DNA from: Lineus longissimus
Lineage: Eukaryota > Nemertea > Pilidiophora > Heteronemertea > Lineidae
Reading direction: 5' to 3'
Length of the DNA: 64,000 nucleotides
Assembly (NCBI RefSeq): GCF_910592395.1
Contig: NC_088318.1
Location: 1,800,001-1,864,000 of the forward strand
The first letter of the stretch is position 1. The number at the start of each line of letters is the position of its first letter. The notes under the pieces were generated by a model that was not told where the DNA came from, did not search any database, and saw only the letters and a list, made by a program, of their open reading frames with translations. Positions 3,126 through 17,598 of this stretch are shown here, piece after piece. The position numbers were made by a program, and so were the translations under genes.

Positions 3126-6100
3126 ATGTCGATCTTGTCGACATCTGAGCGTTTGCACCACGAAGACCGATTTCGCCCCTCCTGGATGTCTAGACAAGAG
3201 ACATTTCACACTCTCATGAAACATGGAGAGAGTAACGAGGTCATGGACTTCAATCTCAGGGTTCAGAAGCTAAATGAATACTACAAAAATGGTCAGTTTC
3301 TGAGACTGTCATTTTTGACATTTTGATTACCTAGTCCTAGGCCTACCAGGTTTTGCATTGTAGGTTTTGAAGTCATTTCATTATCTTCTTCTCGTTTAAG
3401 CTAACGTTGGGTGGTCTAATTAGTTCATTCCAACAGGCAACACCCTCATTTTTTCAGTGAGACATCAAATCATTGCTTACCAGAGCCCAACAACCGGCCT
3501 TTTCCCTGCCAGCACAGTTGGAGCAGAGAAAAAGGTTGCCTATGTCCGTGACAGCATCTACTGTGCCTCTGCGATTTGGGCATTGTCAGTTGCCTACAGG
3601 AGGATTGACTACGATAAGGGCAGGACGCATGAACTCGGGCAGACGGCTGTGAAATGTATGAGGGGCATTCTGCATTGTTGGATGAAACAAGCGGATAAGG
3701 TGGAAAAATTCAAAGTGACCCAGTCTCCAAAGAATGCGCTGCATTCCAAGTTTGATATGATCACCGGCGACCCTGTCCTGAGGGATGAGGACTACCAACA
3801 CCTCCAGATCGACTGTGTTGCCATGTTCTTACTTTATCTTGTTGAGATGATCGAGTCAGGGCTACAGGTAAGGCTTCAAATATGGGATAAAACAAATATC
3901 ATTATTTATTATAAACAAAGCACTTATTCTGGTAGGCCTTATGCCAACGTATGTTGGAGATATTTAAAGTGGATTTCGCTCATCCACCTTTTCAGTGCAA
4001 GTGCTACAAAAATGTACCTTCTTATTTCCTCTTCAGCGGAAGAAAACTTGGTTACCTCGATTTGGTCTGCTGAACTCATGATCAGTTAGCATGGAATTCC
4101 ATACACATGCAGCAATTTGGGACCGTTTCATTAATTCTCCCATTAATATTGACTGAGGTGCAGGAGGGGTATTGTATTGAGTAGGGGTTGGAAGTACCGG
4201 GTAATGTGAGTTTCAGTTGTGTTTTTCATGCATGTCCTTTTAGATTATCTACACCACAGATGAAGTGACGTTCATACAGAACTTGGTGTTCTACATTGAG
4301 AGAACGTACAGGACACCCGATTTTGGCATGTGGGAGAGGGGGAGCAAGTATAATAATGGATCACCGGAATTACATGCAAGGTAAATATGTCATTAAACTT
4401 GTTTCTCTAGTGTCTGTCGTCATGTGATTGGTCACTCACCTCAGTTGGCGATGTGACGTCGTTCCACTACTGCAAAATGCAGAACATCTATGAGAAGTCT
4501 TCAGGGAAGCTGATGTCGAAAATAGGTTTGTGCAAGGGAAGTAACAGCATTCTGTGCTAATATGTTATTTTCACAGATTACTTTGCAATTCTGTGAACAT
4601 GTCTTTCTTCCAGCTCTATCGGGATGTCGAAGGCTGCTCTCGAGGCCATCAATGGTTTCAATGTGTTTGGTCAACAAGGTGCTGTGTGGTCTGTGATCTA
4701 TGTAGACATCGATGCTTACAATAGGAATAGGACAATCTTTGAAACATTGCTACCGAGAGAATCAGCATCAAAGGTAGGGAGAGTTTGGAAACCTTTTGTG
4801 GAAGAATATCCTGGGTCATCAGTTCAGACAGTTGCCCTCAATTCCTATTGAAACTTTTTAGTAAATCATCTTCAAAGTTTATCCACTAGGTTCGATGTGA
4901 GCCTTCGCATTATCTGAAACCTGTATTTAGGACAAGCCCTATGGTGACCAGGATGAATTATGACGGACACCAGCATTCAGTTTTGTCTCCAAAACAGAAC
5001 TGTCCATTTAAGGAAGATTCAAGAATGCAGAGAAGAAAAAGAAGTATATGACTATAAAGTACCAATTGGAAAGCCAAGCCTGATCAAGTTTAACCATCAA
5101 ATTATACATTATTCTTGATTTCAGAATACTGACTCTTCACTAATCCCCACTATATGTTGGCCCGCATTTGCAACCCATGATGAACCGCTGAGGTCCAAAA
5201 CGATCGACAAGATTACACGGAAACTGAAGGGACGATATGGTTTCAAACGATTCTTACGAGATGGTTACAGGACCGTTGTTGAAGACAAGAATAGGAAGCT
5301 GTACAGGCCTGCTGAAATTAAGGTGGGTGAAGAGCAAAATGTTCATCAAGAACCAGAGTGATGTCAAGGTTGTATGATCTGTGATTGTGGAGTTGTGGGA
5401 GAGGGTTTGTATGATGAGGATGCAGACCTTTGAGGAATTCCCGTAGATGGTGCAACAAGTCTTTATCTCGCGGGTACCATAAGAACATCTTTAAACGACA
5501 ATGCTAACAGCTCGTGACATCTCATGACATAGTGTCACCTCTTGTTAATTTCAAAAGATGGTTTACCGTTGTCTGGGATCTTGACCACACTCTTGCTTCA
5601 TGTTACTAAACTTCTAGGCTGGTAAACCAGGCTAGTTTTACCATCATCATTTGACCTTGTCTGTGTGTTTTCATGCACTTACCCACAGTTCTCGCTGCTG
5701 CGGCAACTAATCTCAATTTTGCGCCACCAACTCATGTGTGTTTGGTATCTCACTAGGGCGGCATGGCAAGCCTCGAGGTAGGTCACATGACCCAAGCTTA
5801 CGGCCACCGTAAAACATTCATCATGCAGAGAGTTGATATCCTGAACTGTGGGGATTATGAGGCACGTCCCGGTTCTGGGCGATCTTGTATTCCTGAGTGT
5901 CGTGCCCCTTGAATGTGTGTCAAGGAAACAGCACTCTGTGACTTCAAAGACACAATAAAGTTCCTATTTAACGTTTTCTTGGCCCTCAAGATTATGAGTT
6001 GGCCTGGAACCTGCAGTTGCCTTGTAATGTCTGGAATTCGGAATCTCAGTTCTCTTAGCTGTTCATCATTCCATAACTAACTAAGCATTATTCATTAATT

Positions 6101-9100
6101 GCCAAATACATTTTCCTCTTAGATATTTTCATGCTTGTTAACCAAAGACTTTGCCTTTTTGATCCCTGAAAAATGTTTTTCCTGATTTAGAACAATTCAG
6201 GCTTTTTTACGGTGAGTTTTAGGTATGGGGTATAGCCTTGGGTGGGTTAGTGTTTTCTAAGTATACAGCATGTTGTCTGGGATGCTACACTTCTACGGTT
6301 CTACGACTCTTATTCATGTGGTCTAATACCACTTCCTTGAACTTGTGTAACAAGTGTTCATTCTTCTCAGTTTGGCACTTCAGATAGTGTCTTGAATTCA
6401 TTTGATTTCTAAGCTTCTTTTGAGTGATTTGACTTTCACTAAACCAACCTCCCAGTAGTTCCCAGCTTTGCTACTAACATTAGATAAGACTTTAACTGAG
6501 GGAGGGGTGGAAGAAGTCGTTCGGGGGGGGGTACATTGCCACAAATCTGTAGGAAAATAAGTTTCTTGGTGGGGCTGCACCTTGCGACTGGGTTTGAGTG
6601 GTCTTGGAGGGTGGCATGATAATGATACTTGGTAGTGGCACATTCACCAGCTTGGAGATAGTGGTTACACTATTGAAGGTTCAAACATATCGACATGAGC
6701 ACGCTTGAAATAAAATATCAAGATGATAGATAAGTCAATTTGTTATTTAAAGTAGGAAAAAACCAGAGCCGCCTGAGAAGTCCTTCGCTGTCGAACAGAG
6801 TTGCCCTCTCTATCCCATCAGTCTTCTGCGGGGACCGGCTGGGAATCGATATGGGGATCCCAGAGTGACACACGCTGAAATTTCCACTGTGGCCCTCCGA
6901 CAGCCCAGTGATAGGTCTTCTCATGCAATACATTGTATGTCAGCCGCCCACTGAGGAAGTTGAATCCGACTTAGTTATGAACTGCTATGAGCAAGTCCCA
7001 GTTATTGGTGTTGAATATGCAACCAGGTGATCTCCAACTCACTGATTAATCCTTTGTAACAATTGATGTCTGTTTCCGTTTCAGAACTTTGACGGGATCG
7101 AATGTGAATGGCCTATGATGTTTGTCTATATGATTATCGAAAGTAAGTAGAACCTTCATTTAATGTGTCTTTCATTCACCATAACTGTCTGTCATGTACT
7201 GGCAGTCCAGCATAATCACCCAAAACAAAAACAAATTTTTAATTGGAAAAACAAGAAGAAATTTCATTGTCTGCCAAAATAGAATCAATGGGTACAAACA
7301 TTTACAGGTTTGCAGTAAATATTATTGTGATATTGTTGTGTTTCAGGCATGTATTCGGGCAATGAAGAGAATGTTCAGCATTATCAGAGTCTATTGGAAC
7401 CGTTATTGAGAAGGACAGCGGACGGTGGTAAGTGTAATGTGTCTCCCACTGAAGATGCCCTTCGTGTGAGCTCTGTGCTTTGGACAAGTCCATACTCTCC
7501 CATTGTATTGTAGGCGTACTCACTGAAGGTTTTACACCACTGTTGTAATGAAATTGTAAACCCAAGTTCTGGCCCTGCTCCATGTAGTCGCGAATACATC
7601 AAATTGGTGCCCAACTCTATTAGAACACTCCAGGAGTTGGGGGGAGGGGGTGCTATGTGAACACTATCAGCTTGTACCCACATTGTTTTCGATCCGCCCA
7701 ACAGTGTGTTGCATCTTACTTCCCTTCAGGATATGTTCTTCCCAAGTATTACTACGTGCCAAAGGACTACATTGAAGGGGAGAGAGCGGCCCCAGGGAGT
7801 CAGTCCAGGATGCCCAGCCCTGAAGGCAGTAAGGAGGGCCTGTTCATGTGGGGGCAGGCCATATATATCATCTCACAGCTACTGGGTAGGAAATTCTTCT
7901 TTTCTCAATGGTTAACGATGTCTCTAATCTGCCTCTAATCTGCTTTCAAAGTGTTCATTTTTCAGCTTGCAATTTCTTGCTATGAGATTTGTCAAACTGA
8001 ACTTATTGTGTACACAACATAACTGTACCCATTTCAGGAGCGACAAAGCAGACTCTTAAAAAGTGAGGGTGTCCTTTAATTAGTGAGCTGTCCGCCAAGA
8101 GAGGTTCCACTATATATAGAGATATCATGATCCTTTTCAACCACGTCCCCTTTATCATTCTTGGTTCCAGTTGATGATCTTATTCATGTGACGGAACTAG
8201 ACCCCATCAAACGATTCTTACCAGCAGGGAAGCGGCCCAAACCCAGCATCCGTTACTCCTCATTTCAGGTCTGTACAGCACTAAGTGTCGTCATCAACAT
8301 CATAATCTGTGTCGTTGTGTTCATCAGCAGGTTGCAGAGTTGCCCCTAGTGTAGGATATCTCTTATGCTTACTGCAGCAGGTGAGACGTCCCGACATGAA
8401 GGGGGACTCTGTGGCCTGAGAGGAGTGCTTAGTATGTTGGCTTACACCCATTATTTCTTCCAGTTGATGACCTCGTGCATGTAGCAGAGCTAGACCCTAT
8501 CCACAGATTCCTACCAAAGGGACTCAGTGATAAACACAACATTAGATACTCCTATTTCAAGGTTTGTTTTCAAACCAGGGTGTGTCATTCTGTCTTCCAG
8601 TGGATAACCTCCTGCATTTGGCCGACCTTGACCCTGCACATAGGTTCCTTCCTGTCCGCATGAGGTCCAAGCATTATATTCGCTATTCCTACTTCGAGGT
8701 TTGTGTACAAACCTAGTGCCTAGTGTAGTTTAGAATAGGAAGTGCTGCGTCAAAAGGCAGAGCTGTGCCTCATTGTAAATATCTACCGCTGTAAATATCT
8801 CTGCAATTTGTGAAAAGTCTTTAATGATCTAATGTTCTGACTGTTGTTTCCAGACGTCAGACGGGTTGTGTTGTTTTACCTCATCATGCATTAGGTGCTT
8901 GCTGGAGGAAGGAATATAGGCTTTCGGCAATATATTGTACATAATGGTTGTTAATCCTAGATAGTGTTGGCAAAATTTTCCTTTACAATGCTTGAGACCA
9001 AAGGTGGTGGAGGTAAAGTGATCTCGCCTTTCTTTGCTCCACTGTATGAATGATTGTTTCATTTGTCTATAAGATTTATGCAAGAATATTGTAACGATGG

Positions 9101-12100
9101 CCTACAGGACTTGTATTATGGTTCTGTATAGATACAGCTTATTACTGTTGAACGAAGGACGCTTGACCTGTCCCGTCCTTGGGCTTTAGATACAGCTTAT
9201 TAGTTAAGGTAGGCAAGTAAAGAGAAAGCAGTGATCCAAAATATGGGTTTGATTATCTTATCTTTGATTGAAACTCCCCTTCATTTGGTTGGCCTCTGAA
9301 TATTCGGAGCAATGTCAGAATAACAACTGATTAAATTATGATTATATGTAAGAGTTTATTGACAATTTTGTTCCAGAATACTGCCAAAGATCTTTCAGTT
9401 CAGGTACTGCTCATCGCAGAGAGTATCCGTCTCCAGCAGCTGCTTGCCACGTATGGTATCCATGCGCAGACGCCCCATCAGGTTGAACCGGTCCAGATCT
9501 GGTCTCCGAACACTCTAGTCAAAGCATACGAATACATGGGGCAGAATAGGAAGTTAGGCTTGTCGGGGAGACCCAAGAGGCCTATTGGACAGCTTGGTAC
9601 AGCTAAGGTAGGTGAAAAAATGGATGTGGTTATGGTTAAATCAGCACTTTGGGACTTCCCAATACCTACACTGTACGGCAAAAAGTAACATGGTTTGGAC
9701 TTGCACAATCTTTGATATTTCGCTTTATACCAAATTACATGAAACAAACATTGAAATGTAGCTTTTACTGCACGCAAACACATGGAAATACATGTATTAA
9801 TAAAAAGCTATGTAATGCTTTGGATCACCATGGATACTGAACGCTTATGTTTTAGAGGTGTAAAAGCCAACTATTCTCAGACATGTGAGATTACAAATCA
9901 GAAATCTGTTTATCAAATCATGTTTCTGTATTTCAGTTTTATCGTATATCGAACACGACGGTGCTATGTTACCCATTACTGTTTGAACTGAGTGATTTCT
10001 ACCTGTCGCAAGATATGCCGCTGGTCATTGATGAACTGAAGGTAAAGTGTGTTGATTTCTTTTTGAAACCTGTCTTGGGACCGAGATCCCGTGGACGCTG
10101 CCATGTTGATGTGGATGATTTCCGACATAAAAAACTCGAGATGACGCCTATTGTGTAATCAATGGAACCACATTTAGACAGACACATCATGTCATAATGA
10201 AAGGGGTTATGACATTAGGGGCATTAACATGTGAATAACGACGATTGCCTCATATCAATTGCATTTTCCAGGGGCCAGTGCTGTTTTTCTGGGAGTGACT
10301 GGTGAGGTGAAATATGGAGTGGATGTTGAGTCAATCATATGTAAAATCAAATCTGTTTATAAAGTGTTGTGACTACAGCATTGAATGTTCCAACTCCTTC
10401 ATCATTTCATATGTGTAACTATTTTCTTCTGTCTTAAAGAATGACTTGGCATTTCTTGCTAAGACATGGAAGCTCGGAGGACGGCCAACATTCTGTATGC
10501 TGATTCGTGAAGACACAATCAAGAGCCCGCAGTGGCGCGACTTTGTCGATTTCTTAGCTGAAATGAAGCGAGGTGAAGTCAACGGTGTGAAGATCAGGCT
10601 TGGAAGATTACAGGTAGAAACATTAGGAAATCTATCGAGTCAAATTGTCATGCAAAAATGGCTGCTGAACAATTAACTGGGATCAGTATGAAATCTTTGC
10701 AGTGGGATCACACATCTGTTGTGTTTTTCGAAGCAGTGTCTTTGTAAATACTACTCTCTTCCTCCTTTTCTTTGCTAGACTGGCACTCTGTTGATTTCTT
10801 TGACTGCACAGATTGTCTAGTTATCAGTGTCAGTTTACCTGGCAATGGTCTGAAGGGAAACCAAATAGTTTGCTAATCAAATCGCATTCAAATACTTCAT
10901 CATGTGATCTATTTTGTATTGCAGGAGATGGTGTCGTCTGCTTGCATCGAGCACTTGGACTTCTTCCGCGGCAGTCTGGACGAGGGCAGCACATTCACCC
11001 CTATCCAAGAGGTCGTCTCTGGTCTCAACTACGAGGGCTTGACTGATCTCCCTAAAGAGGGAAAGATTGAAGATGACGCCACAAGTATCAATACCGTGGT
11101 AAGTATCTCATTTGATAAAAAAGCCCGAAATTTGTGTTTCTTTGAAATTTGACAAGATTTTAAGGAATAAATGCTGTTATGGCCATAGCAGAGCCTACTG
11201 AAATAAGGGGTAGGCAGCGCCCTCTACACAAGTACAGAAACTCTGTAGGTCAACATTAGTGACAGCTGACAGAGAGAGCGCAGTAAAGCATGTAAAGTCC
11301 TGAGTTTACACCTCTCAATATCTAAAACGTTTCAGGAACTGGAGAGGAAGTCTAACTGGGACTTGGTGAGAGATCTTCACAACACAACACGCCTCTTACT
11401 CCAGAGTCATATCCTTCACATCCTGCTCAGGAGGGAGGGCCTTAACTTCAGAGTGGATGATTGCACCGTCAGAGATCACCTTCAGCATCTTATTAGGAAG
11501 GCTGGTGTTCAACAAAACTGGTATGTTTGAGGTTTTGAAGCTTGTGGTTTCTGTGAATGGGGTGGAGAAGTCTAATGCTTAGATAGATCGCCTGAATAGA
11601 CTCTACATGAATACATGCTCTATATCATCAGTAGTGGCTAAATGTTTACACTGAACCTTTCCACTGGACTGCAGCAGCCTCATCGTGGTTCGTATGACTA
11701 CGATTCCATAACATAGACCCCAGTCTGTTTCAAAGGGTATCCTCTCTAAATCAAGTTCCAACCAAGGTATTTATAAGTTGCCAGTCCTTATAAGACATTC
11801 GTATCTATACACAAGCGACTTAAATTGTCACTAAAGGATAGGATGTACTACATGATCTGGCCTACCTGTGGCTTAGCTATATTCTCCCTTTGAAGGGCTC
11901 ATCCTTGTTGTTTTTCAGGGCTGTTGTACGCTTCTGCTCCGCTCTGCTTCATAAGATAGTGGACAGCTTGGCACCGTCATTGTCATCTGTTTTAGTCCGT
12001 GGCAGGCAGGTATGTATAAGATCACTCTCCAGTTGACTGACACAATCTGTGATTCGTCTGTGTGGCAGGTTTAGCTTAGACTTGAACGACTAACAGATTT

Positions 12101-15100
12101 ACTACGCGCTACCAAGCTCTCGGCTTCCCAGTCACACAAAATGGAAAAAATCAAAATCTGACGGAACTGTCTTGCTATTCTGATTTAAACCCGACTGAGG
12201 CCTCCGTGCAGTGATCATCTTTGTTAGTACCATGCTGTTTTTACAACGCTAAACCTTTATAACCAAGTGATTTACCTAAAATTCCCCTTGTAGGTGACTC
12301 TTGGTGTGTTCGGCCATGAAGAAGAAGTGATCGACAAGCCGCTCTCACCGGACGAAATCCGTAACATCCTCTACATGAAGTGCTACCCCCATGACATCTA
12401 CCAGGCCGTACTTCAACAGGAGATGATTCTCAATGTGGGCATGCTCTTCTCTGTCCATCCAGAACTCTTTGATGGGATTCTCAAAGTTCGTATCGGGTAT
12501 GTTTATTGAATGACCATGCTGCCCTGAAGTCACTTGGGAATCAACTACTAGAGACACTGCGTACTGCCTCACGACTCAATTTCTTTCTCATACAAAGTAT
12601 TTTTTGTCCGTTAGAACTCAATTTACAAATATATTAAAGAGCAAATAAAAATTCTCTGATATGGCAGTGACGAATTCCAAGCAGTCTTGCTTATTGAAAA
12701 CTTGGCAAATTGTCTCTGCAGAGCTTTTAATTAGCTTTGTAAAACATCAAGAAAATGAAAACTGATTTATTTCGTGCATGTACTTCAGATGGATAATCCA
12801 AGCTATGCAGTTAGAAATCAACTACAGCGATGATGAAGAACCCTCATCCCTGTACGGCCTCTCGCCGGGGACGATCCGTAATCTTCTCCATTCGATCCTC
12901 ATGAAGCTCGACCTCGATCAGGACTACAGGTAAGATCAGGCTCTCTCAGATCTTTGCATGTGAAATTGTTGTCGTTAAAAGGGAAAGTCTACATGCTAAT
13001 CTTAATAAAGATATGCACCGTTCAGTTGATTGGTAGTTTCATTAATAGGCTGTGGGCCAAATCCAAAAACATGTCTAATGCGACTTATTTCGGGGGCAGA
13101 GTGAAAATGTCGTCACAAATTCAAAAACTGACCCCAATTGTGGATTTGGCCTATGGCCTATGATGCATGTGTTGCGCTTGTGATGCTAACCTATTCATCT
13201 TTAAGTGTGATATTATTGACCTTTACTTAGTGTTTTGAATACCGCTTTAAGAGCCCTTGCTTTGTTTCTACATATTCCATGTTACGCCAGTAGACATTTT
13301 GTACAAACAATTTACACTCTCCTTCTCCAGAAATTTTATGACGGGGGCGTTTTTGTTGGCTCCAGCCCATAGCATGATTACCGTACTGTGACTCTGAGTC
13401 GACTGAGACTTGATTTGGATCGGAATATTTCTCTAACAAAACAATTGTTGCAGACGTTATTGTTGTGTTGTGATGATGTTGTGCAGTACTTACTCATAAT
13501 ACTAAGGAATAATCAACATTTTATCAAGTCTACAAAAAGTTAGAATTGAGATTTATAGTCCATTATTGACTACGGTACAGGTTATCATCCAATGTCACAC
13601 ATCAATCTATAGTGCAACAGCGTAAATGTTGAAGTTGATAAGTGAGATATTCGGAGTCTGAAAAGTGGGTCTGAAAAAAAGATTGAATATTTGTAACCAG
13701 GGCTGGGATGTGTGTTTATGATGCACTGGCATTTTTCCTTGCGGTATCAAGTCAACTAGCTCTGCATATCAAAGCTTAGGCAAACGTGTAAATTTGCCTG
13801 TACAGTCTATCTGATCACTAGAGTGCTTATCCTTTAGATCCGAATTGTTTATTTTGTAGTCTTGATAAAATGTTGACAACCTAGATCGACATGTTAACTG
13901 CATTGCTTGTCTCTTTCCCTTGTTAGCCAAGCGCCAGAGTATATGAAGTCAAGAAGGTAGATATTTTTTTATGCCCGGTACAAAAGCATTAAATCCTCTG
14001 TCTGTATAAAGGAAATTGGTATGTGTAATATTTTGGTGAGGGACAAATAAACTGGCTCGCAAATCTAGATCAGTGACATAACACAACTTTTTGACACAAG
14101 TAACCCCAGACTGGACCTTACATGACTGTTACTTAGTACCGATATACTAATTTGTGCTAACATATTCCTTAATGATAAACATGATAAATCTATGTAAAGT
14201 TTTAATCTCGTATTCTACTAGTTGGTCAAGACCTAGCCCAGAATCGTTTGCATCAAGGTAAGAAGGTAGTGCCCCCTATAATGGATGTTCCAAATAACTA
14301 CCTTGGACCCCTTGTTGAAAATAACATGTTTTTCTTGTTTAACCAAACCTAATATCATCCCCAAAACACAGCTGGGCTATGATATGTAGTTCTTGAAAAG
14401 GCATTTTTCACTGGACTACATTTGTAAAGGTGACGAGAATTGAATTACCCAGCACTGCCTAAGAAGCCATTACCGGGCCTAGTAGTCTGTGTAGGCTTAC
14501 TATTACTGGTAGTGCTTTGCCGAGGCGTCTACATTCAAACATCACTTCAGTTAATACTGACCTCAGACAAGTTACTTGTCTTCTGCGAGAACACTGTCCT
14601 GAGGACACTGGTGGCTGCACATTGAAGTACCAAAAAATGATTCTCTGCATGCATTGAACCAAATGATGCTACAAATAAAACTAACTGGAACACTATCTGA
14701 CCTACACTAATACCTCCTTCTTTGACAGTTTTGTACAGTCAGTCCCAACCTCACTTCGACTTACACCAGCACTTTCATTCTCTCTCAGTCTGTGTTGATA
14801 GGTTACCGGTATATGAATTATGATTGGTTGTGTATGTAATGTTCCCTGGTTGTCTTCGTGCGTTTTGGAGGTATATGTATATTTGCCTGTTTATAATGTC
14901 AAGTAGGTGTTAAGTTACTAAAAAACTCCTGATGTTCTTCGAGTGCCAATTAACTTTTCAACACACCGCTGTCTATCTGCCATGAAACAAGGGGTATAGT
15001 ACCCTGATGACAAGAAGGGCTTTAAACCCTCATGGGCACTTTTGAAACATACAGGAACAATTCGTCATGGTCAGTTTGAAAAAAGGTGAAAAGGGTTTCA

Positions 15101-17598
15101 ACTTAAGGGCCTTTCATGGCCAATTTCGAAAGTTTTCTGCCCAGATTGTTGTTCATATCCCCCCCCCCTTGCTGAAAGGTAGTACAGAGATGAAAATATC
15201 CTCCAAAAATCTCAAAATCGGTTCTCGGCAGATAGACACGTGGTTGTCTGCTAGGTTTGTACGCATGACTAATATTCTATAGTAGCTTGTAGTTCACTCT
15301 GCTTTGCTCTCACCCTGTTCTTTAGGACCTCGACCGTGTCAGCCGCCTCTGACAGTCGCTCTTCTGACTCGGTGTTCATCTTGGGGTATAAACGGTGAGA
15401 TGGTTTCTTTCTGTTCTGTTTCTACATGTAGGTACTGTACACCACCAAATGTCTGCAAATTACGCGCATAACTGCTCTAACGGAGATTTGGTGTATGCAC
15501 TGGGCACATCTCATGTAAGTGAATGGATAAGTGGATGTCCATCAGTTGAGCTCCTTGGGGCAACACCAATGAAATTTTGAGTTTAACTCCTCAAGGTCTT
15601 GTCAGTAATATCCACAGCACAAAATAGAAGAAATTTGTTAAATGAACCAAGATGTGCTGAAAAAATGACTTCTTTGGCAAAAAAAGCACTATCACAGTTC
15701 TCATTCATTTTCCAATACTTTGATATGAAGGAAATAGAGCCTTGCAAGAGGACTGGAGCGCTATGTCCATTGCTCTATTCATGTCTACTACTTCATTATA
15801 GCCTTTCTTTATCTGTCTTACAGGAGTTCGATCTGGAGAAGACAGCTCGATGGCGCTCTGAATCGTGTCCCGAAGGACTTCTATGAGAAAGTTTGGCAGA
15901 TACTGGAGAAGACAGCAGGGGGCCTGAAGGTGGCTGGCTATCATTTACCTCAGGTGAGAAAACTTTACTACTTATTGTCAAGTTAAAACTTAAAGTTTGT
16001 TGTCAACTTCGGGAGAAGTTGTTATCTGATTTTACACTTCAACCCAAGTCTATCCGGAAGCCTTTCGTTTACACTCAGAGAAGCTGCTTGTTCAGCACTA
16101 CAAGCTGAGCATTTCTGACCAGTAGCCATTTACACCTTGGTGGAGTAAGGCAAGCTGGACAAAGAGACCTGCCTAAAGTCTCAGAACAACTGTAAAGTTT
16201 GAACCTGGGCTCTCTTGATGCTTGTCCAGTGCAAGCCACTAATCGACAGTGGCTCCTAGAGCTTTCCCCTCTCCCTAGATGGCACTGCCACACAGAATAC
16301 AGTGTCGACCTATTTAACTTAAGCTAATTGAAGTACGTCTGTTCAAATAGGCCTACTAGCCTAAAGACATAAACACAGTATATGTAGCTTACTTAAACAA
16401 TCAGTTACGCCTATATCTTGTCACTTTTCCAGCAACCTACCCTCTCAGACATGACTCTCTACGAGCTGAACTTCATGCTCCTGGTCGAACAGATGTTGAG
16501 TAAGATTGCTGACCCTGCCTACAGACAAGTTGTAGTCGAGGTAAGCTGATCAACACTCAGGATTCCCTCGGCGAAGACACATAAACTCCCGAAAATTGAG
16601 AACCTGAATACATCAAAAAGCAGAACTGCTACTTACTCTGCAAAACAATGACATCATCAGAGACACCAAAGCCAATTGTTTTTGTCTTTATACCCAAGTT
16701 GCGATTCATCCGGCAAGTAAAGCACGACGCAAAATTATTCAATGTCTCTGCCTTTTCAGACGTTCATGGTTGTGGCAACTATTTTGGAACGAAATCCCGA
16801 GCTCGAATTCTCGACGGCTGTTGATATTGACAAGGTGAGATGACACTGACATTAACAGGGCGTCGTGTAAACAGGTCGATTTCCTCAACTTGCAGACTGG
16901 TCTTTGTTCACTAAGACGGTCATTTGATAGGTCTCTGCTGCTGAACTTTTCACAGATTAGCTATGGCCAGTCTTTTGACATACAACTGCAGGACTTTGTA
17001 GTTAGTGCCTGTCCTCAGGTTGAGAACTAAATATCCTCAGATTTGAATTTCGTAAAGGTAAAGCTGTTGTTGTAACTGACTCTTCTATGCAATGAATGTT
17101 TGCACAAACTAGCCATGGCAGATTCAGTGGCCCAAATTCATAAAGGGCGTTTAAGGGTTAGACATGTACAACTTCTCTCTAATCAGTTTCAGGGCCTGTT
17201 CATATTCTGTGAAGATTCACATGAAGGGCCAGAATCTGTCTATTCCGTAGTTAAACGCTGTTTTAAGCTAAACACCCTTTATGAATTTGGCCCAGTAAGT
17301 TATCCAAGTGAAGTAAGTCCACCTGTTTATCGTAGGAAAGTTAATTCTGTAGTCATCTTGTTCATCAGCCAGTCTCTTTTCCTTCTTTATACAGATCATT
17401 CAAGGTGCTTTCAAAGCCTTCCAGACTAACAAGAGCCAGACATCTGAATACGAGAAACAAGACAGTATGCATGCTTTCTACAACACACCGCCTAACATCA
17501 AGCACGGAACTACCAGTTATATTGCAAAAACTGTTGTGGAAGAACTTCTTGCGGGTCAGATTCTTAGCACTGGAGAGAACACGTGTTCTGTCAGTTAG
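3126..17598 (+). CDS. PHKB: PHKB, phosphorylase b kinase regulatory subunit beta (complete, spliced)
   Basis: Regulatory beta subunit of phosphorylase kinase, the cytosolic complex that activates glycogen phosphorylase. Coding exons: 3126-3291, 3458-3867, 4244-4380, 4614-4773, 5125-5322, 7085-7142, 7347-7427, 7730-7885, one of 8171-8268/8464-8561/8601-8698, 9377-9607, 9937-10041, 10440-10613, 10925-11098, 11336-11520, 11919-12009, 12294-12496, 12789-12929, 15824-15953, 16433-16540, 16760-16834, 17395-17598. Phases agree throughout; the total is 3285 nt, 1094 aa, close to human PHKB. Beta rather than alpha identity rests on [11 protein letters not shown]-type and [66 protein letters not shown]. 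The N-terminal half is the glucoamylase-like (GH15-type) domain; [12 protein letters not shown] lies in the C-terminal region conserved in PHK subunits. It ends CSVS, a CaaX box. Start: first ATG of the open exon; a TTG upstream at 3114 is not credible. Three optional cassettes fall between 12929 and 15824. Confidence 0.97.
8040..8112. repeat. Degenerate end of the TACAGTRGAACC MITE family
   Basis: GGGTGTCCTTTAATTAGTGAGC and the closing AGAGAGGTTCCACTATA resemble the right part of the element at 19518-19700. It lies in the PHKB intron just before exon 9a. The left end is not recognisable. Confidence 0.45.
8171..8268 (+). CDS. PHKB: PHKB alternative exon 9a
   Basis: First of three tandem versions of the same 98-nt exon. 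It follows TTCCAG and ends CAG before GTCTGT. Completing the preceding exon's phase-1 G, it reads [18 protein letters not shown], a variable stretch, then IRYSSFQ, in frame with the next exon (NTAKDLSVQ). The corresponding vertebrate segment has the pattern ELISPKDIDPVQRYVP. By my count it shares 22 of 33 residues with 9b and 18 of 33 with 9c. Confidence 0.9.
8464..8561 (+). CDS. PHKB: PHKB alternative exon 9b
   Basis: Second 98-nt version, after TTCCAG and before GTTTGT. It reads [18 protein letters not shown], then [10 protein letters not shown]. Same entry phase (1) and exit phase (0) as 9a and 9c, no stop. Using 9a and 9b together would shift the frame: 98 is not a multiple of 3. Confidence 0.9.
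8601..8698 (+). CDS. PHKB: PHKB alternative exon 9c
   Basis: Third 98-nt version, after TTCCAG and before GTTTGT. It reads [18 protein letters not shown], then [10 protein letters not shown], in the same frame. Only 39 nt (8562-8600) separate it from 9b, shorter than introns animals normally splice, so 9b and 9c should not be joined. It shares 21 of 33 residues with 9b. Confidence 0.88.
13927..13956 (+). CDS. PHKB: PHKB optional cassette A (30 nt)
   Basis: Bounded by TTGTTAG and GTAGAT. Inserted after the 12929 donor it reads [10 protein letters not shown] in phase 2 on both sides, so inclusion keeps the frame. Basic and Ser-containing. Real use is inferred from splice sites and phase; no transcript evidence. 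Confidence 0.5.
14222..14257 (+). CDS. PHKB: PHKB optional cassette B (36 nt)
   Basis: Bounded by CTACTAG and GTAAGA, phase 2 on both sides. Reads [11 protein letters not shown], with RPSPES as a plausible proline-directed or basophilic phosphorylation site. It sits in the linker where paralogous alpha subunits carry a phosphorylated Ser-rich segment. Confidence 0.55.
15326..15394 (+). CDS. PHKB: PHKB optional cassette C (69 nt)
   Basis: Bounded by TTCTTTAG and GTGAGA, phase 2 on both sides. Reads [20 protein letters not shown] then YK. The Ser-rich sequence ending in hydrophobic-Gly-Tyr recalls the segment SSSDSGGHHIGW of PHKA alpha subunits. If used, it gives this beta subunit an alpha-like regulatory loop. 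Confidence 0.6.
16120..16255 (-). repeat. tRNA-derived SINE-like repeat in PHKB intron
   Basis: On the minus strand, TAGTGGCTTGCACTGGAC resembles a tRNA box A and variable arm, followed about 30 nt later by GGTTCAAAC (box B-like, 16205-16197). The plus-strand start, ACACCTTGGTGGAGTAAGGCA, matches a repeat tail I associate with many marine invertebrate genomes. Diverged and presumably inactive. Confidence 0.5.

Follow-up and report, generated by a model that had tools for sequence, protein, structure and literature searches.

The PHKB locus of Lineus longissimus

The window, a 64,000-nt stretch of the genome of Lineus longissimus (Nemertea), contains a complete PHKB gene, which encodes the beta subunit of phosphorylase kinase (PhK). 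Our gene model predicts three forms of the product, each 1124 aa long, with Pfam GH15 and KPBB_C domains; PhK beta is the best solved relative of this protein, and its GH15-like and KPBB_C domains place it in PHKB. When built with exon 9b, the model is identical to the annotated phosphorylase b kinase regulatory subunit beta-like isoform X2 of L. longissimus (P0001), except for two microexons and the acceptor of exon 2, which lies at 3437 in our model instead of 3458. Between exons 8 and 10 stand three tandem versions of exon 9:

3126..17598 (3' end about 17598), plus strand: PHKB gene from start codon to stop, modelled with 22 coding exons plus alternative exons
7730..7885, plus strand: exon 8, shared upstream exon, leaving in phase 1
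8171..8268, plus strand: exon 9a, 98 nt, ancestral-type version
8464..8561, plus strand: exon 9b, 98 nt, the version in annotated isoform X2
8562..8600, plus strand: 39-nt gap between 9b and 9c, with every A at most 38 nt from the 9b donor
8601..8698, plus strand: exon 9c, 98 nt, the version least like 9a
9377..9607, plus strand: exon 10, shared downstream exon, entering in phase 0

All three exons precede a GT (AG/GT throughout). They are of equal length, follow the acceptor TTCCAG, and are entered in phase 1 and left in phase 0, exactly as the preliminary description of this locus had it. The same description held that two versions together would break the frame, and every join (9a+9b, 9a+9c, 9b+9c and the triple), as well as skipping of the exon, does meet a stop codon. 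One refinement concerns the triple, which at 294 nt is a multiple of three; length alone would permit its inclusion, yet its interior is out of frame and reaches a stop in the second copy. Isoform X2 carries 9b, the sole version seen in a protein record here.

The exon 9 copies are homologous and constrained as protein

The three 33-residue peptides share the motifs LDP, RFLP and IRYS and are identical at 22 (9a/9b), 18 (9a/9c) and 21 (9b/9c) positions, which agrees with the motifs and the range of 18–22 pairwise identities reported earlier. The corresponding DNA identities are 64, 56 and 63 of 98. Peptide alignment scores of 112, 93 and 119 stand against maxima of 33, 16 and 24 from 2000 shuffles each, and the resemblance among the copies exceeds chance. 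A profile built from 62 distinct exon 9 peptides, with 9a, 9b and 9c among them, was run against a six-frame translation of the window and recovered the three exons (E values from 2.5e-19 to 5.8e-16), with nothing else above E = 0.17. When the 9b peptide was searched against the entire genome (391 Mb in 30 contigs), it hit three places, all of them at the PHKB cluster.

First and second codon positions agree at 49/66 (9a/9b), 47/66 (9a/9c) and 52/66 (9b/9c), and third positions, the least conserved in all pairs, at 16/33, 10/33 and 12/33 (Fisher p = 0.014, 0.0002 and 0.00005, respectively). Nei–Gojobori dN is 0.28, 0.32 and 0.26 in the same order; dS is 2.6 for 9a/9b and saturated for the other two pairs. 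This pattern shows that all three exons are under purifying selection as protein. Because dS is 2.6 or saturated, the duplications are old, although a date is not obtainable from one genome.

Exon 9a resembles the ancestral type

We compared the three versions with 120 relatives listed of 5680 matches. The closest version was 9a for 109 of these, 9b for two and 9c for one, with eight ties, most of them vertebrates. The two relatives nearest 9b are P0001 itself and P0080, an acorn worm protein (15/33 identities, versus 13 with 9a), and the one nearest 9c is P0064 (11 versus 10). The other nemertean listed, Tubulanus (P0002), matches 9a at 19/33, 9b at 15/33 and 9c at 13/33 residues. By these comparisons 9a is the ancestral-type exon. 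Relative to the majority residues of 44 invertebrate PHKB rows, four derived residues are common to 9b and 9c but not 9a, and four to 9a and 9b but not 9c, so the order of duplication is ambiguous.

A weak fragment search for relatives with a 9b- or 9c-like exon yielded none among the nine proteins (of 136 candidates) that passed E ≤ 1e-20; the three that cover exon 9, P0121, P0122 and P0129, were rejected by eye as 9b/9c types.

Two observations concern this segment in other animals. In P0080, isoform X2 of Glandiceps talaboti, the exon 9 segment deviates from the usual motif, has NFK as its end, and is possibly another alternative version in the acorn worm. Of the 120 listed relatives, 14 have short insertions precisely where exons 9 and 10 meet (P0020, P0021, P0024, P0027, P0029, P0039–P0041, P0044, P0059, P0094, P0099, P0112 and P0116), and these insertions differ among Physella acuta isoforms; the junction thus varies in other animals too.

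The exon probably encodes a connector between domains D1 and D2

Exon 9 aligns to residues 456–488 of human beta; it comes after the final helix of the glucoamylase-like domain and ahead of a strand that belongs to the domain beyond. An AlphaFold2 model (mean pLDDT 68.5, pTM 0.49) shows the segment as mostly coil, with low confidence at residues 485 to 499. Because the model is weak and superposes poorly on human beta as a whole (TM 0.48), we read no contacts from it. From the alignment and this model we infer that exon 9 forms the D1–D2 connector. The segment had previously been described as a loop in the glucoamylase-like domain; the weak model and the alignment favor a connector to the next domain over an internal loop.

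Conservation within the segment was assessed in the 44 invertebrate rows (P0002–P0045), a set in which one species is represented by several isoforms and from which P0001 and all rows beyond P0045 are absent. D473, L479, P480, R490, Y491, S492 and F494 are 98–100% conserved in these rows and are kept in 9a, 9b and 9c. A second set, A481, E483, R484, P485 and Q495, is 82–100% conserved. At these five positions (481, 483, 484, 485 and 495) 9a has A, K, R, P and Q; 9b has K, L, S, D and K; and 9c has V, M, R, S and E. The motif is therefore changed at all five positions in 9b and at four in 9c, where R484 is kept. E483 is changed in 9a too, to K, and the change is not wholly confined to 9b and 9c. 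That 9b and 9c alter a motif otherwise held by evolution speaks for a functional choice of version.

In human PhK (PMC10978961), the smaller beta–beta interface uses beta D1 and D2, and one alpha–beta interface uses beta D2. The same paper describes ADP bound between beta D1, D2 and D4, with D2–D5 shifted relative to D1 and activity raised. A D1–D2 connector in three versions could tune this behavior.

Splice-site spacing probably separates 9b from 9c but not 9a from either

The 39-nt gap between 9b and 9c is far below the shortest other intron of the PHKB model (166 nt); the other gaps around the cluster measure 285 (8–9a), 195 (9a–9b) and 678 nt (9c–10). The As in the 9b–9c gap lie 11–38 nt from the 9b donor. 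Joint use of a donor and a branch point needs about 50 nt (PMC7969005, PMC5740500), so splicing from 9b to 9c is very unlikely. A donor-to-branch-point distance under about 50 nt occurs for 9b–9c only, if the branch point lies within the gap; one upstream of the gap would fall inside exon 9b. The spacing is different for 9a–9b and 9a–9c: the 9a–9b intron has 195 nt and its branch-point candidates lie close to the 3' end, and 9a is not sterically barred from either 9b or 9c.

The donors also differ in strength. The 9a donor scores 7.7, which is average (9 of the gene's 20 constitutive donors score lower), whereas AAG|GTTTGT (9b, 5.8) and GAG|GTTTGT (9c, 5.0) are weak, with one of the 20 lower than each. 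A stem search placed a hairpin on both weak donors:

8560..8576, plus strand: 6-bp hairpin on the 9b donor (GGTTTG, loop TTTT, CAAACC)
8697..8714, plus strand: 7-bp hairpin on the 9c donor (AGGTTTG, loop TGTA, CAAACCT)

Of the 7538 GTs in the window, 86 carry a stem of at least 6 bp and 18 carry one of at least 7 bp; none of the 20 other PHKB donors has a stem longer than 3 bp. The 3' arm of the 9b hairpin overlaps the branch-point-like As open to 9c in the gap, two nearer As excepted, and we regard this hairpin as a lead to a candidate 9b/9c switch. Outside their loops the two hairpins are near-identical, though third positions of the exons agree at just 12/33. They are not independent, because the copies are related, and they differ by no compensatory change. 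In 151-nt folds the donors of 9b and 9c were not unusually buried (unpaired probabilities of 0.33 and 0.24, versus 0.09–0.76 in the 20 others).

Six duplex tests of long-range pairing among the four cluster introns gave nothing that stood out (z from −1.65 to 1.03). Folding of the whole cluster region gave z = −1.97 against just 15 shuffles, for one genome. The motif GCATG is found 0 times in the cluster introns and 12 times in the other introns of the gene, and other splicing-factor motifs differ within about 1.6-fold; neither comparison is informative.

Mutually exclusive splicing best accounts for the cluster

Equal length and phase, homology, coding constraint, stop codons on every join or skip, and the 39-nt gap strongly support mutually exclusive splicing. 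We consider it highly probable that 9a, 9b and 9c form a mutually exclusive exon cluster with one version chosen per transcript. The preliminary description had proposed this, and its proposal is strengthened by the gap and by the presence of 9b in an annotated isoform; what it leaves unexplained is the separation of 9a from 9b and 9c, which sterics do not provide.

In a looser arrangement, all three versions could be used without strict exclusion, double inclusion or skipping being common, and decaying transcripts would then set the level of PHKB. No steric bar sets 9a apart from 9b or 9c, and any double inclusion or skip leads to an early stop. In humans, joining reads occur in 83 of the 377 clusters whose lengths are not multiples of three (PMC5740500). 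A 9b–9c join is sterically implausible, however, and constraint on all three peptides argues that each is used productively; we find this arrangement improbable.

It is very unlikely that one or two copies alone are still used and the rest are relics of duplication. Such a history would fit a protein record in which 9b is the sole version, and a 9c that has a weak donor and has diverged furthest from 9a. Yet all three copies are free of stops and frameshifts, their acceptors and donors are kept, and synonymous change greatly exceeds amino-acid change; once synonymous sites are saturated, an exon no longer in use would not have kept an open frame.

An assembly error or collapsed haplotypes mimicking a tandem array is scarcely credible, since 34 to 42 of the 98 sites differ between copies, the introns that separate them have quite different lengths (195 versus 39 nt), the assembly is chromosome-scale (PMC8593623), and we found nothing in favor of an error.

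A candidate exon pair in PHKA and further alternative exons in PHKB

In the PHKA gene of L. longissimus, on contig C9, we found a homologous pair of tandem exons that is a candidate for mutually exclusive splicing:

L008 5356–5500 and 7007–7166 (C9:18835356–18835500 and 18837007–18837166): PHKA candidate exclusive exon pair, 145 and 160 nt

Both exons are 1 modulo 3, and they share 16 identities over 48 aligned residues, with an alignment score of 91 against a shuffle maximum of 4 (500 shuffles). As in the PHKB cluster, the exons are homologous, in tandem and equal in length modulo 3, here in a paralogous subunit, but the pair corresponds in position to beta exons 11/12 rather than to exon 9. 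In the 28 kb of PHKA that were searched, the counterpart of exon 9 occurs once.

The PHKB gene itself has four further small exons:

5757..5777: microexon of 21 nt that encodes GGMASLE and lies between exons 5 and 6, present in P0001
13927..13956: 30-nt in-frame exon, present in P0001
14222..14257: 36-nt in-frame exon
15326..15394: 69-nt in-frame exon, present in P0001

The 30-, 36- and 69-nt exons stand in a row and are absent from Tubulanus and the other relatives shown. We presume that these exons (13927–15394) lie near the place of the human PHKB muscle/brain exclusive exons.

Proposed mechanism and implications

Phosphorylase kinase, the switch for glycogen breakdown, is one of the classic allosteric enzymes; its beta subunit is a scaffold. 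In the mechanism that we propose, tandem duplication of an ancestral 9a-type exon would have given rise to the cluster, and exon 8 would be joined to exactly one of 9a, 9b and 9c and then to exon 10, yielding three beta subunits that differ solely in the 33-residue connector. Exon 9b would exclude 9c because donor and branch point are too near in the 39-nt gap. A splicing regulator, together with decay of frame-shifted transcripts, may keep 9a from 9b and 9c, and the weak donors would make 9b and 9c regulated choices. With less certainty, the choice of version may alter the D1–D2 connector and so tune PhK assembly or allosteric coupling by tissue or stage.

What the glucoamylase-like, non-catalytic parts of PhK alpha and beta do is described as unsettled (PMC10978961). 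Three connector versions with the rest of the subunit constant would amount to a natural swap experiment, one that marks exchangeable residues and points to the connector as a control point. The 39-nt 9b–9c arrangement also offers a compact case in which steric exclusion could be tested. A broader scheme, which we hold to be unlikely though worth stating, is that exclusive exons vary both PHKB (three D1–D2 connectors) and PHKA (two versions of a segment), giving graded alpha4–beta4 holoenzymes with tissue-tuned ADP sensing or domain coupling, and that the donor hairpin could switch between 9b and 9c.

Comparison with known exclusive exons

Mutually exclusive exons have been recognized by length, splice sites, frame and homology (Pillmann et al. 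2011, PMC3228551), and the PHKB exon 9 cluster agrees with them in each of these respects. In the human set of Hatje et al. 2017 (PMC5740500), the lengths of 377 clusters (60%) are not multiples of three. Like the clusters in these two sources, the exon 9 array is internal, has equal lengths, phases and splice sites, is homologous and frame-breaking, and includes one short gap of the steric type. Unlike them, it has three members, lies in a species and at a gene position for which we came across no report, and is known here from genome sequence. The possible 9b–9c branch points, all at most 38 nt from the donor, recall alpha-tropomyosin and OGDH exons 4a/4b (PMC7969005); in OGDH, by contrast, the branch points are distant and the intron is longer, whereas the PHKB gap is 39 nt in total and covers one of three exon pairs.

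We found no report of exclusive exons at this site of PHKB in the open-licence literature, and the exon 9 array is very probably a known kind of system at a site for which that literature yielded no report. The mammalian PHKB muscle/brain exclusive exons, which we take to be human exons 26/27 near the C-terminal part, are alike in belonging to the same gene and in offering alternative versions of one segment. They differ from exon 9 in site, as the preliminary description had also remarked, and L. longissimus has cassette microexons at the presumed equivalent place (13927–14257 and 15326–15394). In Drosophila, the gene for phosphorylase kinase gamma also has exclusive exons, so that a subunit of the same enzyme is varied in the same manner. 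That cluster belongs to the catalytic subunit and departs from the expected length and homology (PMC3228551), whereas the PHKB cluster conforms to both.
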